A stretch of DNA of 64,000 nucleotides, from the NCBI GenBank assembly GCA_018608405.1, contig JABAZP010000038.1:21338-85337 (forward strand). The letters run 5' to 3'. Shown here in pieces: positions 39,173 to 46,681 of the stretch; the first letter of the stretch is position 1; every line of letters starts with the position of its first letter. The notes beneath the pieces were generated by a model, which ran no database searches, was not told the DNA's origin, and saw only the letters and a program-made list of their open reading frames with translations. The position numbers were made by a program, and so were the translations under genes. The stretch is from Flavobacteriales bacterium (lineage in GTDB: Bacteria > Bacteroidota > Bacteroidia > Flavobacteriales_E > Vicingaceae).

Positions 39173-40223
39173 TTAAAGGAAATAAATCACTCCTAATAAC
39201 CCGGCTAATCCTAAAACAATAGTATAAGGAAATGCCATTTTGACCATCTTGACATAAGATAAACCAATTAATGGCGCTACAGAGGAGGTTAACAAGAAAA
39301 GAAAAGCTGCTTGCCCATTAGGAGTAGCCACACTTGGTAAATTTGTTCCTGTGTTGATAGCGATTGCTAATTTTTCAAAATGAGCTCTGTCAATTGCGCC
39401 ACTTTGAAATGCCTTGTCAACTTCTCCTATATAAATAGTCGCAACAAAAACGTTATCACTAATCGCAGATAGGAAGCCATTCGCCGCGCAGAATAAACTT
39501 GGTTGTTGTTGTAAGTCTTGCAGTAGTACCCATTCTATAATAGGGGAGAATAGATGCTGATCGTGGATCATGGCAACAATTACAAAAAACACAACTAGTA
39601 AACCTGTGAATGGCAGCGCCTCTTCAAATGCATGGCCTAAAGCATGTTCATCTGTTATTCCTATAAATGCAGTTTGAAATATAATTAAACCTAAACCAAT
39701 AAATCCTACAGGAGCTATATGCAAGGCGAGACTAATAATTAATAAAATCGCAGAAACCCCTTGTATCCATAAGGCATATTTTTCCTTAGACTTCCTTTCT
39801 GCATCCTCCCCATCGATGTACGCTTTTATTATTTGTCTAGCGACATTTGGAAGTTTAGTCCCAAAGCCAAACCATCCAGTTAACTCTAGAACCACAGTAG
39901 TTAATAGACCACAAAAAAATACAGGTATAGTAATTGGAGCCATCTGAAAGAAAAATGCTGCAAAATCCCACCCCATGCGTTCGCCAATTAGTAAGTTTTG
40001 TGGTTCACCAACAATAGTGCAGACTCCGCCTAGAGCAGTTCCAACGGCTCCATGCATCATTAAACTTCTCAAAAAAACCTCTAAACTGAGCAAGCGTTTC
40101 TCCGCTAAGTTCATCCTTATCTAAAATCTCATTTTCATTGTAATCCTCTACACCTGAATGTATTTTATGGTATACAGCGTAAAAACCAACTGATACACTA
40201 ATCAACACGGCCATTACCGTTAG
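39173..40223 (-). pseudogene. nhaB: NhaB-like Na+/H+ antiporter, 5'-truncated and frameshifted
   Basis: The frame matches the C-terminal two thirds of NhaB (family length about 510-530 aa): LTVMAVLISVSVGFYAVYHK, GTALGGVCTIVGEPQNLLIG, GITDEHALGHAFEEALPFTG, FLSAISDNVFVATIYIGE and NTGTNLPSVATPNGQAAFLF. Two lesions are visible. First, homology stops abruptly at 40223, leaving about 160 N-terminal residues absent and COG0523-family sequence on the other strand instead. Second, a run of seven T on the coding strand (40071-40077) shifts the frame; with six T it reads GFLRSLMMHG, as in known NhaB. As it stands it cannot encode a working antiporter. Confidence 0.9.
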
Positions 40224-41113
40224 CACAAACATTTAGTTTTGCTGATGAAGAGAACGACATTGACTTATCTAAATGGAGTTATGTGGATACTATGGTTTCT
40301 GTAGTAGATGCTTTTAATTTCTTTAAAGATTTTGGAAGCCCTGAACGATTAATGGATCGAGAACTGACAGATATAGAAGACGATTATCGAACCATTGTCA
40401 ATTTATTGACGGATCAAATTGAGTTTGCCAATGTGATATTGATTAATAAATCAGATTTAGTGAGTAAAGATGATTTGGGTTTTTTGGAGGCAACACTTAA
40501 AAAGCTGAATCCATCTGCTCAACTTGTTTCTACAAGTTTTGGAAAAATTAAGCCTAAGAGGATCTTAAATACTGGGCTATTTAATTTTGAAGAGGCAGAG
40601 CAAAGTGCAGGTTGGCAAGAAGAATTGAATAAGGAAGAACACACTCCTGAAAGCGAAGAATATCGAATTGGTTCTTTTGTTTTTCGAAGTCAGAAACCAT
40701 TTCATCCCGAACGATTTTCCGAATATGTTCAGCAAAAATTTCCTTCCTCTGTAATTCGAAGTAAGGGTTTGTTTTGGTTGGCTTCACGTCCTGAACAAGC
40801 TATGGTTTGGGGACAAGCAGGAGGTTCTTTACGAACTGATAGTGCCGGGGTATGGTGGTGTAGTATGTCTTTTGATCGCAGAGCTCAATACGTTTCCTTC
40901 TTGGACAATCAAAAATCAATTGAAGCTGATTGGGATAAAACTTTCGGTGATCGTAAAAATGAAATTGTTTTTATCGGGCAAGCAATGAATGAGACAAGGA
41001 TCAGAAAAGAATTGAATCACTGTTTGTTAACAGAAGATGAATTAGTCACAGTTAATTGGCAGGAAGGATACCAAGATGAATGGCCGGTAGAACGAGCTTA
41101 TGCAATTGAATAA
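40211..41113 (+). pseudogene. COG0523/CobW-family GTPase, N-terminus missing
   Basis: An open frame of 301 codons starting mid-protein: PLPLAQTFSFADEENDIDLS, VDTMVSVVDAFNFFKDFGSP, FANVILINKSDLVSKDDL (the NKxD guanine motif), then the C-terminal CobW domain (IGSFVFRSQKPFHPERFSEY, WWCSMSFDRRAQYVSFLDNQ, EIVFIGQAMNETRIRKELNH). The Walker A (GxLGxGKT) and CxCC metal motif, which should lie in the missing 110 or so residues, are absent. An internal ATG at 40283 could be used, but the product would lack the P-loop. Family members are metallochaperone GTPases, often for zinc. The frame begins exactly where the truncated nhaB ends. Confidence 0.88.
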
Positions 41114-41174
41114 AACGTTGACTTATAAATTCAGACTAGGTTAGACTTTCTTCAAATTTCTCCGGTACAACCTT

Positions 41175-41341
41175 GATTTTAGAGCAAGAGAATCAACATT
41201 TCGTAACGTAAGTTCGTTACGCAAACTGAAAAACGCTTGTTTTTAAATGAATTGTACAAAAAATCAAAACGAAAATCCTCTATTGATGAGACTTTTACAT
41301 GTAGCGAGGAGCGGAATCAAACCTCAGGCTTATGAATCAGA
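41175..41341 (+). repeat. Degenerate tRNA 3'-half plus flank, direct-repeat copy 1
   Basis: This segment aligns in direct orientation with 45064-45240. The right part (41300-41341) is a mutated 3' half of the CAT-anticodon tRNA: TGTAGCGAGGAGCGGAATC is intact, 7 nt of the T-stem region are deleted, and the anticodon region TTATGAATC is kept. The left part keeps a decayed terminator hairpin (AAAATCCTC...GAGACTTTT) and the flank CGTAACGTAAGTTCGTTACG. The 5' half of the tRNA is absent, so it is not a functional tRNA. Confidence 0.8.
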
Positions 41342-41394
41342 TAGTTATTCTTTGAGTATTTTCCTATTCCATATTCTGAGAATGGAGTAATGAG

Positions 41395-41850
41395 TCATTT
41401 TAATATAACTTTCATTTCTTCTTGACTCACCAAAGCACTTTTTCTATAGATAGGCTCTAATCGTTCGTTCAACAAAACAGTTGTTGGAAGCTCTAATTTG
41501 CCATTAGAATTTCCCAAATAAGTAGCCAACTGATGAAATCCCCCTTCCTGATCGTAGGAATATTCTCTACCAAAAAAGCGAACGGTTTTCTTACTTTCAG
41601 CATTTAGCTTAATCGTGTAATAACCTTGATTAAGCTTAGCAATAATTAAAGAATCTTTAAAGGTGGTATTTTCTTGCATTTTACAGAATTTGCACCAATC
41701 TGCATGAATGAAAATTAGAATAGGTTTCTGTTCTTCTTTAAAATGAATGTTTAATTCATCAAACGAGAGCCAAGAAATTGTAGTTTCCTGAGCAGATGTA
41801 TCTAAAGCAACAAACAGATAAAGTAAGATGATTAGAAAGCGGAGTTTCAT
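41395..41850 (-). CDS. Secreted thioredoxin-fold protein
   Basis: A 151-aa protein with a signal peptide (MKLRFLIILLYLFVALDTSA) and a thioredoxin fold: ISWLSFDELNIHFKEEQKPI, LIFIHADWCKFCKMQENTTF with the redox CxxC (WCKFC), YYTIKLNAESKKTVRFFG, and the cis-Pro segment ELPTTVLLN. It resembles the DsbD-gamma-like or 'thioredoxin family' proteins next to TonB receptors. The 1-nt gap to the receptor gene upstream means one transcript; it may keep receptor or ligand thiols reduced in the periplasm. Confidence 0.9.
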   Translation of the reverse strand: MKLRFLIILLYLFVALDTSAQETTISWLSFDELNIHFKEEQKPILIFIHADWCKFCKMQENTTFKDSLIIAKLNQGYYTIKLNAESKKTVRFFGREYSYDQEGGFHQLATYLGNSNGKLELPTTVLLNERLEPIYRKSALVSQEEMKVILK

Positions 41851-41851
41851 C

Positions 41852-44137
41852 TTATTTTAAAGTATATTTTAAACCAACAAACCCTCGAATACCTAAATTA
41901 GCAGCATATACATAAGTAGGGTCAAAGGTTAAAGCATTGGGATTATTTTCGGTCGCTATTACTTCACCCTCAGCGTTAAATTGAACGTTCTCATCAAAAG
42001 GGTCAAAAGAGCGGGCAATACTATTAGAAGCAGGAGTAAAATTCAATATGTTCTTAACTCCACCATATATTTCCCATTGCTTGTTAATTGATTTAGTGAT
42101 TTGAATATTCTGTATGCTAAACCATGGAGAATATTCCGAACGATCATCCAATTCTCCCAACAAAGGCAGACGCATTGGACTATATATATTCCCTGTATAG
42201 TTTAGTTTCAAATTCCACGGTAAAATGGTGTATTCAATGTTCCAGACTGCCGTGAAACGTTCGGTTAATAATTGTCTCACTTCTTCACCCTCTTCATCAA
42301 TGGTAACATCCATAAGGGTTGCTCCCCCCATTAGTTTTAGTCCGTTGGGAAGTGTTAAGTCTACATTCAATGAAACTCCTTTCGATTCAGCTGAACCATT
42401 TAGATTATCATAAATGATCTGATTTGGGTTCGTTTCGTAATCAGGAACAATACGGTTGTTGAAGTATGTGTAAAATACAGAACCATCCAAACCAAGGTAG
42501 GTTTCATCTTTTAAATAAATTCTTTTCACCACATTCAAATTAATATTTCTTGAGGTTTCAGGATTTAACTCACCTGCAAAAACGACTTCTCTAGAACCTG
42601 TCAAAGCAGCATGATCTTCTGTGAAAACATTCGCTACACGGAAACCATTTCCCAAACTTAAACGAACCACCGTTTTATTCCCTTCTGTGTTCCATTTATA
42701 ATTGATCCGTGGGGAAAAAATGTTACCATGAACGCTATTGTAGTCATATCTTACTCCTAATAACAAGGTATTAAATTCATTTAAACTAACTTGATCTTGC
42801 ACAAAAACTCCTGGTAAGTGCGTTTCCTGAGCTTTATTCCTTAGGCTATCAAAATTTAAAGTGGCGGGTGTATTGTCATCGTAATACGTATAGCGATAAG
42901 CTGCTCCGACTAAAAAATCATGAGATGTAAATAATTCTTTATTCCATGTTAACTGACTAAATCCAATCCGTTGGTTTGCCTTGTAAATGGTATTTCCATA
43001 GACTGAATTTTGATTGTGACCATTGGCACTAAATTGTAAATTGAACTTCTCTTTTGTTGGTAATTGGTAATTTCCAAATAACTCCCATCGACTGGTGTAA
43101 ATGCTTTCGCCGTAGACGGAATCACCTCCTCTAAACTCTGGATTCCAACTCACATCTCCTCCCCAACGATCTTCGTAAACGTATCGACTTCCAATATTGA
43201 ATTCTCTGTTATTTTTTCTATTGAATGAAATTTTATTGAAAAGTGAAATTCTATCTTGTAGCGTGATGTCGGTAAAACCATCGTTGTTATTATCAATAAT
43301 ATTCTCATAATTGAAGTAGTTTAATCCCACTAATGCGTTAACCTTTTTGCTGATTTTATATTTTGCTCCTATATCAGCGTTTACTTCTCCCCAAGAGGTA
43401 GTATAAGCATCAGTAGAAAAAAGCGGAGCATTCAATGGCTTTTTCGTAATCACATTTATTAAACCTCCTACTGCTTCTGAACCATATAAGGTGGAAGCAG
43501 GCCCTTTTACAATCTCAACCCTTTCAATCAATGAGGCTGGAATGCCTGTTAAACCATAAACGGTTGATAATCCACTAACGATAGGCATCCCATCTATTAA
43601 TACCATGGTGTAGGGTCCTTCTAAACCATTAATATGAATATCTCCCGTATTGCAAACACTACAATTTAACTGGGGACGAACACCATTTACATTCTGAATA
43701 GATTCAAAAATAGAAGCCGACTTATTGTTCTCAAAATACTTCGCAGAATAAACTTCTACAGGAACAGGACTATTCAGTTTCGACATTTCCTTCATGGTTC
43801 CTGTTATCACTACATCGTTCATCATATTGGTTTCTTCTTCGAGTAGAAAATCTAAGGTGTAAGTCTTATTTTCTTTGAACAAGATCTTTTTATATTCCTT
43901 CTTAAATCCAATAAAAGTAGCTACAATTGTTTTTTCTCCCATAGGAATATTCTTTAAAGTGAACGTTCCATTTTCAGCAGTAGTAGTTCCAATGCTCGTT
44001 CCTTTTATATAAACGTTTACAAATTGAGCATTCTGATTGTTTTGAAGTTTTACTGTTCCACTTAAGGTAGCTGTTTGTGCTAAAAGAGTTATAGAAGATA
44101 GTAAAAGTGCAATAGGGAGAAATATTATTTTGATCAT
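41852..44137 (-). CDS. TonB-dependent receptor, probable metal or metal-chelate uptake
   Basis: A 761-aa outer-membrane receptor: signal peptide, CarboxypepD-reg-like domain (LSGTVKLQNNQNAQFVNVYI, residues about 22-110), plug (DVVITGTMKEMSKLNSPVPV, GPYTMVLIDGMPIVSG, ERVEIVKGPASTLYGSEAVG), then a 22-strand barrel ending in an aromatic-rich strand (LGIRGFVGLKYTLK). The plug contains CSVCNTGD, a CxxC unusual at this site; the co-transcribed thioredoxin may act on it. A divergent DtxR/MntR-like gene and an operator palindrome inside its promoter suggest repression by metal. The ligand is not known. Confidence 0.92.
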   Translation of the reverse strand: MIKIIFLPIALLLSSITLLAQTATLSGTVKLQNNQNAQFVNVYIKGTSIGTTTAENGTFTLKNIPMGEKTIVATFIGFKKEYKKILFKENKTYTLDFLLEEETNMMNDVVITGTMKEMSKLNSPVPVEVYSAKYFENNKSASIFESIQNVNGVRPQLNCSVCNTGDIHINGLEGPYTMVLIDGMPIVSGLSTVYGLTGIPASLIERVEIVKGPASTLYGSEAVGGLINVITKKPLNAPLFSTDAYTTSWGEVNADIGAKYKISKKVNALVGLNYFNYENIIDNNNDGFTDITLQDRISLFNKISFNRKNNREFNIGSRYVYEDRWGGDVSWNPEFRGGDSVYGESIYTSRWELFGNYQLPTKEKFNLQFSANGHNQNSVYGNTIYKANQRIGFSQLTWNKELFTSHDFLVGAAYRYTYYDDNTPATLNFDSLRNKAQETHLPGVFVQDQVSLNEFNTLLLGVRYDYNSVHGNIFSPRINYKWNTEGNKTVVRLSLGNGFRVANVFTEDHAALTGSREVVFAGELNPETSRNINLNVVKRIYLKDETYLGLDGSVFYTYFNNRIVPDYETNPNQIIYDNLNGSAESKGVSLNVDLTLPNGLKLMGGATLMDVTIDEEGEEVRQLLTERFTAVWNIEYTILPWNLKLNYTGNIYSPMRLPLLGELDDRSEYSPWFSIQNIQITKSINKQWEIYGGVKNILNFTPASNSIARSFDPFDENVQFNAEGEVIATENNPNALTFDPTYVYAANLGIRGFVGLKYTLK

Positions 44138-44146
44138 CTATGCTAA

Positions 44147-44219
44147 ATTTTTAGATTAGCAAATGTAAATTATTTAGATTGATCTAAATATAAGATTTAG
44201 AAAAATTTAAATAAATTTG
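44147..44219. promoter_or_regulatory. Divergent promoter with DtxR-type operator
   Basis: The gap between the receptor and regulator genes contains TATTTAGATTGATCTAAATA (44171-44190), a perfect 9-bp-arm palindrome with a 2-bp centre, of the AT-rich TTAG...CTAA form used by DtxR/MntR repressors. A related half-site, TTTTTAGATTAG, lies at 44147-44158. On the minus strand an exact -7 box TACATTTG (44160-44167) places the palindrome in the -33/-7 spacer of the receptor promoter. On the plus strand TAAATTTG (44212-44219) is an exact -7 box for the regulator. Binding there would block the receptor promoter and may also affect the regulator's own. Confidence 0.65.
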
Positions 44220-44235
44220 AGACAAATATATATTC

Positions 44236-44898
44236 ATGGCTTCTAACACCATTGAGAACTACTTAAAGGCAATTTATTCTTTACAGCAAAAACAAGAAAA
44301 AGTTAACATTACTGATGTAAGTAAGCATTTAGAAGTCAGTGCTGCTACTGTTAATAATATGATGCAGAAGTTAAAGAAAATGAAATGGGTGAAACAAGAG
44401 AAATACCAACCAGTTACTTTAACTGTAGAGGGAGAAAAACGTGCAGCAATGATTATTCGAAAACATCGCATTGCTGAAATGTATTTGACAGAAAAAATGG
44501 GCTTAGGTTGGGAAAATGTACATAGTATAGCGGAAGAAATGGAACATATTGATTCTTCAATATTATTTGATCGTATGGATGAGTTATTGGATTACCCTAA
44601 ATACGATCCTCATGGTTCACCCATTCCCAACAAGGATGGGAAAATAGTCAAGATGAATTTCCATTTATTGTCTCAAGCAGAAACTGGAAGTTTGGTGCAA
44701 TTGGTTGGTGTAGAAGATAGCTCTAAAGAATTATTGGAATTTTTGAATCAAAAAATGATTCGTTTAGGAACTGAAATGAAGGTGTTGGAAATCGCTTCTT
44801 TTGACAAAAGTCTCTTGCTTGAAATGGAAGAGAAGGATACACTTGTTCTCAGTTCTAAAGTTTGTAATGCTCTTCGAGTAATAGAAGTGGAGAAGTAA
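44236..44898 (+). CDS. DtxR/MntR-family metal-dependent repressor
   Basis: A 220-aa regulator. The N-terminal winged helix starts TIENYLKAIYSLQQKQEKVN, with recognition helix SAATVNNMMQKLKKM. The dimerisation and metal domain has RKHRIAEMYLTEKMGL and HSIAEEMEHIDSS. The E-x-x-E-H pattern is like MntR (Glu where DtxR has Cys102), yet the N-terminal ligand positions are Asn8 and Lys11 instead of MntR's Asp and Glu, so metal preference cannot be read off. The C-terminal 75 residues form an SH3/FeoA-like domain (FHLLSQAETGSLVQLVGVED), as in full-length DtxR/IdeR. It is divergent from the receptor across a shared operator. Confidence 0.92.
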   Translation: MASNTIENYLKAIYSLQQKQEKVNITDVSKHLEVSAATVNNMMQKLKKMKWVKQEKYQPVTLTVEGEKRAAMIIRKHRIAEMYLTEKMGLGWENVHSIAEEMEHIDSSILFDRMDELLDYPKYDPHGSPIPNKDGKIVKMNFHLLSQAETGSLVQLVGVEDSSKELLEFLNQKMIRLGTEMKVLEIASFDKSLLLEMEEKDTLVLSSKVCNALRVIEVEK

Positions 44899-44966
44899 TA
44901 TATTGATTACTTTTTAGAGCCTTGACATTGTGGGATTTCTGTTGTTTGATTGAAGTAGATATTCTA

Positions 44967-44999
44967 ACCGACCTCCGGATTTGATACCCGGAGGTCGGT
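44967..44999. repeat. 12-bp inverted repeat built from tRNA sequence
   Basis: ACCGACCTCCGG and CCGGAGGTCGGT are perfect complements around a 9-nt loop. The left arm repeats the 3'-side tRNA segment CCGACCTCCGG found at 45216-45226; the right arm is its complement. It lies about 70 bp after the dtxR-like stop and has no T run, so it is a poor intrinsic terminator. The match to the tRNA is too long to dismiss. Confidence 0.6.
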
Positions 45000-45063
45000 A
45001 GAATGTGCTAAGAAATAAAAATCTATATACCTCATTATTAGCGTATTGAGCTTCATCAAAGTA

Positions 45064-45240
45064 GATTCTAGAACACGAAAAATGAAGTTTCGTAGCGTAA
45101 GTTCGTAGCGTAAACCGAAAAAGCTTGCTTTTAGAAGACCTATAGAAGGGGTAAGAAACGACAAAAGCCCCTATTTACGGGGCTTTTAAGTGTAGCGAGG
45201 AGCGGAATCGAACCGCCGACCTCCGGGTTATGAATCCGAC
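45064..45240 (+). repeat. Direct-repeat copy 2, overlapping the intact tRNA 3' half
   Basis: This is the intact counterpart of 41175-41341: the flank with TTTCGTAGCGTAAGTTCGTA, the tRNA terminator and the tRNA from the 3' end to just past the anticodon. The two copies lie 3.9 kb apart in the same orientation and bracket the thioredoxin/receptor/repressor genes. Confidence 0.75.
45163..45187 (-). terminator. Terminator of the tRNA gene
   Basis: AAAAGCCCC pairs with GGGGCTTTT (9 bp, 7-nt loop) just downstream of the tRNA 3' end on the minus strand. The following T run is short. A decayed version is present in the other repeat copy. Confidence 0.65.
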
Positions 45241-45266
45241 GCTCTAACCAGCTGAGCTACCTCGCC
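45193..45266 (-). tRNA. tRNA with CAT anticodon (probably tRNA-Met)
   Basis: Minus strand, 74 nt. The acceptor GGCGAGG pairs with CCTCGCT (one G-U), followed by A73. D-arm: GTAGCTCAGCTGGTTAGAGC. Anticodon stem-loop: CGGATTCATAACCCG with anticodon CAT. T-arm: GCGGTTCGATTCCGC. CCA is not encoded. It lacks the initiator hallmark of three G-C pairs in the anticodon stem, so it is an elongator tRNA-Met or, less likely, the tRNA-Ile(CAT) whose C34 is modified to lysidine. Its 3' half is duplicated 3.9 kb away. Confidence 0.95.
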
Positions 45267-45440
45267 AAAATTTCGGACGGCAAATATACCATTTGCTGTA
45301 AAAAGCACAATGCATCTTTAAATAAAAAATAGAGAAAATTTACGTGTGATTAAAAGCTCGATAACTAACCCAATAACGAGTTTCAGAAAATAACATATTT
45401 GTGCGTTACAATATGGATAAATTCAAACACATTGGGCTCT

Positions 45441-45456
45441 TGTAACTTTTGTTACA
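45441..45456. promoter_or_regulatory. Crp/Fnr-like palindrome upstream of the sqr-like gene
   Basis: TGTAACTTTTGTTACA is a perfect 6-4-6 palindrome 43 bp before the ATG. The spacing resembles FNR-type sites (TTGAT-N4-ATCAA), and the outer TGTnAC words recall Crp-family half-sites. It would suit redox or respiratory control of a sulfide-oxidising flavoprotein. No regulator gene is adjacent. Confidence 0.45.
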
Positions 45457-45499
45457 CTAGTATTTATTGTTAATTGTGAACTTGCATAAAAATATAGAT

Positions 45500-46681
45500 A
45501 TGAAAAATTTATTAATTATAGGAGGTGGGACAGCAGGAATTATGACAGCTGCCCAATTACTAAAGCAAACATCTTTTAACGTATCCTTAATAGAACCGGC
45601 AGAATATCATTATTATCAACCGGCATGGACCTTGGTTGGTGCAAATGCTTATAAGTATGGAGATACAAAGAAAAGCATGTCATCGATTATGCCAAAAGGA
45701 GTTAATTAGATTAAAGACTACGCTTCAACATTTGACCCAGAAAACAATACCGTTGAAACTAGAAGCGGTAAAAAATACAATTACGATTTTTTAGTGGTTG
45801 CTCCGGGCATTAAAATTGACACCAGTTTAGTTGAAGGATTAACTGAAGCTATGGATAAGGGAGTGGTTTGCAGTAATTATACTGATCCAGAACATACTTG
45901 GGAGGTACTTAAAAATTTTAAAGGAGGTACTGCTTTATTTACACAGCCATCTACTCCAATAAAGTGTGGAGGGGCTCCGCAAAAAATCATGTACCTAGCC
46001 GATGACCATTTTAGAAAATCAGGAGTTCGACAAAAGACAAAAGTCGTTTTCGCAACACCAGGCGGAGTAATTTTTGGAGTAAAACCTATCGCGAAAACAT
46101 TAATGGAGGTAATAAATCGAAAAGATATAAATGTCCGTTATAGTCATAAACTCGTAAAGGTAGATGGAGATAAAAGGATAGCTTGGTATGAAATAACCAA
46201 AGATGTTAAAGTAGGTGGATGTATATTATTAGAAGATAAGACTTCTAAAAAGGACGTAGATGAAACAATAAATTACAATCCCAAAAAGGTTGAGACCGTA
46301 AAAGACAATAATTTGATAGGAATTAAATTTGATATGCTGCATTTGGCTCCTCCTCAGTCTGCACCTGACTTTATAAAAAATTCACCCCTAGCAAACGATT
46401 CAGGATGGATATCAGTTGATATAGGAACAATGCAGCACACTAAATATTTAAATGTTTTTGGATTGGGAGATGCGGCAGCGCTTCCAACTGCTAAGACTGG
46501 GGCTGCCATTCGTAAACAGGTTCCCATAGTTGTTGAAAATATTATTCGACTTGCAAAATCAGAAGAATTAAGCCCTAATAAATACAATGGATATTCATCT
46601 TGTCCTTTGGTAACCGGTTACGGAAAAATGGTACTTGCAGAATTTGATTACGACTCAAACTTTACACCTGATCAAAATTGA
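45500..46681 (+). pseudogene. Sulfide:quinone oxidoreductase-like flavoprotein with internal TAG
   Basis: An FAD-dependent NAD(P)H-dehydrogenase-fold protein of the SQR type, 393 codons including one in-frame TAG at 45707-45709. I use the ATG at 45500 (MKNLLIIGGGTAGIMTAAQL), which gives the FAD GxGxxG loop at once. After YHYYQPAWTLVGAN the frame reads MPKGVN-stop-IKDYA; SQR relatives have Trp at that place, so this is probably TGG changed to TAG. Downstream the protein is intact (YDFLVVAPGIKIDTS, CGGAPQKIMYLADDHF, YLNVFGLGDAAALPTAKTGA, PLVTGYGKMVLAEFDY). A membrane-associated sulfide oxidation role is inferred by family. Confidence 0.88.

Follow-up and report, generated by a model that had tools for sequence, protein, structure and literature searches.

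Integrative elements at tRNA genes have been characterized in several settings. The available sections of the Islander paper (PMC4383910) describe a signature consisting of a tRNA gene plus a tRNA fragment, and they describe an anticodon subsite. A second system, tRNA-dependent lysogeny, has been shown for actinobacteriophages; in the accessible part of that work, the authors leave open how common it is elsewhere and mention one Lactobacillus prophage (PMC10865867). Among the matches listed in a literature search for tRNA-dependent lysogeny, no title named Bacteroidota, and no title or abstract opening among the matches listed described such tRNA-dependent integration in Bacteroidota, which is no proof of absence. 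Here, we analyzed a locus around a tRNA gene with the anticodon CAT, tRNA(CAT), in a 64,000-nt stretch of a Flavobacteriales bacterium (the window; G000:C15:21338-85337). The window ends where contig C15 ends, in a draft assembly of 38 contigs that is 93.19% complete. With a probability of roughly 70%, the anticodon loop of this tRNA is the attachment site of site-specific integrative elements, and a three-gene block beside it is the remnant of one that lost its integrase.

The intact gene (tRNA A; 45192-45266, minus strand) is the sole tRNA of the window according to ARAGORN and scores 65.2 bits against the Rfam tRNA model. We take it to be methionine-type and of the elongator class. Its promoter motif, TATATTTG (45281-45288, minus strand), was found in the sequence at a measured distance of 14 nt upstream, and its terminator hairpin (45163-45187, minus strand) was recognized from sequence and folding. 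Past the terminator lie two 12-nt direct repeats, TTACGCTACGAA, with a 13-bp step (45089-45113, minus strand), which are candidate arm-type sites. A search of the genome against itself, followed by alignment, revealed a decayed copy of this region (41168-41341, minus strand) downstream of tRNA A in the orientation of the tRNA. The copy starts in the anticodon loop and comprises the loop, the 3' half, the terminator, and ~100 bp of flank, with an imperfect form of the 12-nt repeats at 41200-41224. It aligns with 45057-45239 at a local score of 75.5, compared to a best score of 19.5 in 500 dinucleotide shuffles. When G000 was searched with 45050-45280, the copy was recovered with an E value of 1.7e-19. 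That search gave five matches in total (the query itself, the decayed copy, two pieces on contig C10, and a weak match in a tRNA cluster on contig C12), and the repeat flank is therefore not a genome-wide repeat.

The first-pass annotation had placed the repeat at 41175-41341 and 45064-45240, running from just past the anticodon to the 3' end and on through the terminator into about 100 bp of flank. The repeat is real and its content as described, although by alignment it is slightly longer. The same annotation called the left copy mutated and the right copy functional; in the alignment, the decayed copy lacks 7 nt around the T arm and has a broken terminator. An intact tRNA followed downstream by a same-orientation 3' fragment of itself, at an interval of ~3.9 kb (within the 2 to 200 kb of Islander-type islands), is the arrangement expected of an Islander-type island.

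The anticodon loop is also where the window meets a second contig of the same assembly. The right flank, from the loop to the end of C15 (45225-64000, unstranded), is 100% identical to C10:69823-88598 over 18,776 bp. Identity begins within the anticodon loop, at the G of GGGTTATGAATCC, and the base ahead of it differs between the contigs. With identity to C10 starting at 45225 and similarity to the decayed copy stopping at 45239, the likely crossover core is GGGTTATGAATCCGA in the anticodon loop (45225-45239, unstranded). In the sense direction of the tRNA, C10 carries the 5' half of tRNA A, then 73 bp, and then a complete tRNA(CAT) (tRNA B; anticodon assigned by ARAGORN). tRNA B is 88% identical to tRNA A over 76 bp and scores 67.8 bits against the 65.2 of tRNA A; the two are the only close matches in the 93% complete draft. 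The host promoter and the 5' half of tRNA A thus precede tRNA B on C10, and tandem repeats lie past it.

We compared 19 tRNA(CAT) genes from 18 genomes of the family, with same-class loci and the half gene of genome G005 set aside. The motif TAnnTTTG occurred within 75 nt upstream of 18 genes, and tRNA B was the only one lacking it. Exact tandem repeats (at least 10 nt, step of at most 25, within 150 nt downstream of the tRNA) were present in 3 of the 19 (tRNAs A and B and the gene of G004), all with a 13-bp step, and these repeats would be arm-type sites. From tRNA B to its end, C10 continues for 26 kb that are rich in copper and heavy-metal genes. The inventory, which covers part of the open reading frames (ORFs), includes a multicopper oxidase, an HMA protein, CusB-like and OEP efflux parts, an AcrB-type pump, a heavy-metal P-type ATPase, a di-haem peroxidase, ArsR, MerT, and Fur-like proteins, a DUF3347 protein, and an AlbA_2 protein. 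A further ORF is presumably pump-like, judging from its sequence.

The same nucleotide stands out in a second assembly. In the same-genus genome G001, contig C61 starts exactly at GGGTTATGAATCC and overlaps the end of contig C38 by exactly 127 bp. An overlap of fixed length is suggestive of branching in the assembly graph. Because this overlap starts at the position of the C10 junction, we infer a branch on the left side, where differing neighbors would adjoin the anticodon loop. The decayed copy, the C10 junction, and the start of the G001 overlap all coincide in the anticodon loop.

Integrases were found beside the same tRNA type elsewhere. Running the PF00589 profile on six same-genus genomes, we found a broken integrase ~300 bp downstream of the tRNA(CAT) of G004 (31.8 bits when read whole, across four stops). 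A piece of this relic was matched in 3 of 46 family genomes, namely, G004 itself and two distant relatives, G030 (34%) and G066 (31%). The matches in the latter two end 119 bp from a tRNA-Pro and 173 bp from another tRNA(CAT), respectively, and both proteins match a PHROG integrase. Among 51 viral contigs with the tRNA(CAT) pattern, we selected seven for a long ORF adjacent to the tRNA; in all seven, chosen as they were for this adjacency, the ORF was an integrase. Four of these integrases stand behind a TAnnTTTG motif. An integrase on viral contig L253 starts 65 bp from the tRNA. The earlier suggestion that the 3'-tRNA duplication is the trace of an integrative element is therefore supported by the break in the anticodon loop, the C10 junction, the G001 overlap, and the integrases of G004 and the viral contigs.

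A tyrosine integrase that cuts and crosses over in the anticodon loop could account for both contigs through two outcomes. In the window, the tRNA would have been rebuilt with a 3' half brought in by the incoming DNA, together with a terminator and a repeat flank, and the 3' end present before would have been displaced by 3.9 kb and then decayed. The matching repeat flanks of the two copies suggest that two related elements lie one behind the other. The C10 arrangement is likely that of a copper/heavy-metal element that entered the same loop but did not restore the tRNA, and the captured host promoter probably drives tRNA B. In that case, C15 and C10 may represent the unoccupied and occupied states, respectively, of the copper element in the sampled population. 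With no close match in the draft other than tRNAs A and B, a cell in the occupied state would depend on tRNA B.

Several observations weigh against this reading. No PF00589 gene was found in the window or on C10. The three such genes of G000 lie on contigs C1, C8, and C12, which bears out the first-pass statement that no integrase remains at the module. Without an integrase in the interval, we label the window a remnant rather than a member of the Islander type. When the intact integrases of the genus (the L180 protein set aside) served as queries, neither the window nor C10 yielded an integrase relic. Even in G004, the pieces of the relic taken alone reach 17.2 bits (below the Pfam cutoff) in one case and give no match in the other. 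On C10, the one junction seen shows the short core and the unrebuilt tRNA of tRNA-dependent integration; we did not class it as a member, as no element-encoded tyrosine integrase was found, although this absence is not final because the contig stops within the element. No further exact core word occurs in C10:56000-115156, and hence no distal end was found, nor does the junction have an exact match in the viral contigs. At least five tRNA genes are present in 28 of the 51 viral loci, which are probably unrelated tRNA-rich phages. The left flanks of the tRNA vary among the genomes seen. The 5' half of the tRNA(CAT) is identical in tRNA A, G001, and G004 (39/39) and the 3' half agrees at 30/36, but G010 and G019, from other genera, give the same two figures, and the divergence of the 3' half is therefore weak evidence for swapping. 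The GC content of the three module genes is ordinary, and their codon usage shows no marked difference from that of seven neighbor genes, so that a recent foreign origin is not shown. Finally, two strains, a duplication, and an assembly error cannot be separated for C15 and C10 from the assembly.

Part of this evidence would suit a history without any integrase, in which the 3' half of the tRNA and its flank underwent segmental duplication and the three genes were inserted or shuffled in later. The window without integrase and the ordinary codon usage agree with such a history, as does a copy that runs ~100 bp past the terminator, which is longer than a usual att core. We consider it improbable, since the break in the anticodon loop is also the start of the C10 junction and of the G001 overlap, and since integrases stand beside the same tRNA type in G004 and the viral contigs. 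The relation between C15 and C10 could instead reflect a recent 18.8-kb duplication within one chromosome, with one copy abutting the copper genes. Both contigs fall in one bin, and the SQOR gene to the right of the tRNA is matched twice in G000 and once in G001. The absence of any difference over 18,776 bp and the interrupted SQOR frame shared by both contigs fit variants of one locus at least equally well, and we regard such a duplication as rather unlikely.

The C10 junction might also be an assembly chimera, with the copper region not beside this tRNA at all. The draft consists of 38 contigs, C15 stops where the shared stretch stops, and the junction is seen in a single assembly and in none of the viral contigs. 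A simple repeat-driven join is nevertheless not obvious, as the tRNA does not share the 73 bp that lie left of the junction; the same nucleotide is special in the G001 assembly, and tRNA B would lack a promoter motif unless it lay behind that of tRNA A. A chimera thus appears doubtful to us. A group I intron at this locus was considered and rejected, as the C10 spacer is 73 bp and tRNA B is complete; no intron model matched in L006 or in window positions 41000-45700. In the same-class genome G048 (L162:8607-9076, contig C15 of that genome), a tRNA-Met is split at the anticodon loop by a group I intron (Rfam, 64.2 bits), and an additional 5' half lies upstream of it.

Returning to the integrative-element reading, we looked for an empty site in relatives. 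G001 keeps the tRNA-SQOR side with one tRNA and contains no close TonB orthologue (best identity, 29%), which are features of an empty site; its other tRNA side, with topB, a lipoamide-dehydrogenase-like gene, and UbiA, differs, so that the site is not a clean empty one. We rejected topB beside the tRNA as the native left flank, because topB of G000 is found at another place, close to the start of contig C6, and is flanked differently there. TonB orthologues with 78 to 69% identity occur in G004, G024, G015, and G019, and no tRNA was found within the 17 to 18 kb fetched around them. The thioredoxin gene follows the TonB orthologue in G004, G024, and G019; of the four genomes, G019 alone gave a match to a DtxR-like gene next to it. 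An ancestral linkage of HU and the tRNA was also rejected, as HU occurs with a tRNA 5' half in G005 only. There (L157:2694-3278, G005:C337), the HU gene lies beside a tRNA(CAT) promoter and 5' half, and the contig stops inside the tRNA. In seven other genomes, the fetched stretches of the TPR/HU locus held no tRNA; HU was recognized in three, and the contigs of G003 and G004 end close by, which makes this a weak test of the linkage.

Other tRNA genes in these relatives had unusual features. The tRNA(CAT) genes of G001 and G004 (L154 and L156) and of viral contig L253 have the T loop ATCGTGC instead of the usual TTC type. In G011 (L143:1653-1703), a second tRNA(CAT) 3' half, 75% identical, lies shortly downstream of the intact gene. 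In G015 (L165:2180-2628, contig C9 of that genome), an intact tRNA-Asn is preceded by three tRNA-Asn-like copies in tandem, in which the anticodon arm is altered. Searches of plasmid and phage collections gave no match covering 80% of the query, and the matches listed (8 of 25 and 8 of 84, respectively) were about the length of a tRNA.

The gene order in the window is HU-NhaB-CobW-Trx-TonB-DtxR-tRNA-SQOR. Between the two repeat copies, the inventory of ORFs of at least 80 amino acids contains only the three genes named in the first-pass annotation. The thioredoxin-fold protein (Trx; 41395-41850, minus strand) and the TonB-dependent receptor (41852-44137, minus strand) were identified as ORFs and by family search. 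The DtxR/MntR-like regulator (44236-44898, plus strand) has three Pfam domains, and its scores against NCBIfam MntR models are below the cutoffs; no NCBIfam model attains its cutoff for any of the three proteins. A role in metal uptake is predicted from the protein families alone. Between dtxR and the tRNA lies a perfect 12-bp palindrome with a 9-nt loop (44967-44999), one arm and loop of which resemble the tRNA anticodon arm, inverted, at 19 of 23 positions. The 142 nt around it fold with a z score of -4.4. It may be a terminator or an att relic; as a repeated att site it was rejected, with no second occurrence in 12 genomes.

To the left of the decayed copy, divergent NhaB and CobW/ZigA-like ORFs (39173-41113) abut each other, and both are without their N-terminal part, which makes a deletion or frame disruption at this point probable. 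To the right of tRNA A, the gene at 45467-46681, which we assume to be SQOR-like, has an in-frame stop in C15 and C10 alike and is open in G001. Internal repeats within a long ORF at the end of C15 (61594-64000) probably explain why the contig stops there.

What is new here is the C10 identity junction in the anticodon loop, next to tRNA B and copper genes. We tentatively propose, at a little under even odds, that tRNA-dependent integration extends beyond phages as a metal-island strategy in Bacteroidota, in which a copper element breaks the one elongator tRNA(CAT) of its host, captures the promoter of that gene for a promoterless tRNA of its own, and so becomes indispensable, while the unoccupied site persists within the same population. 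If so, a metal-resistance island would be made indispensable by replacing an essential tRNA and could persist without selection for its cargo, and C15 and C10 would be the empty and occupied site in one assembly.

As far as the available sections of the respective papers show, the locus combines traits of three described systems. The window resembles Islander islands (PMC4383910) in its intact tRNA, displaced same-orientation downstream 3' fragment, intervening cargo, and anticodon-centered crossover; it differs in having no integrase in the interval, homology that continues past the terminator, and an interval of only 3.9 kb. Tycheposons (PMC10872708) are defined with a tyrosine recombinase, unlike the window and C10, which hold no PF00589 gene, but they share with this locus a cargo bordered by tRNA-Met(cat). 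C10 departs from tRNA-dependent lysogeny (PMC10865867) in its metal cargo, its Bacteroidota host, the lack of recognized phage genes among those annotated, and in that no integrase was found and the distal end is not seen. A further difference concerns the promoter: the Fionnbharth tRNA is equipped with one of its own (PMC10865867), but tRNA B lacks a promoter motif and is separated by 73 bp from the split host tRNA ahead of it. By analogy, tRNA-dependent lysogeny is still the closest match to C10, as both show a split host tRNA that is not rebuilt, a short shared core, and a complete tRNA with the same anticodon on the element side (PMC10865867).

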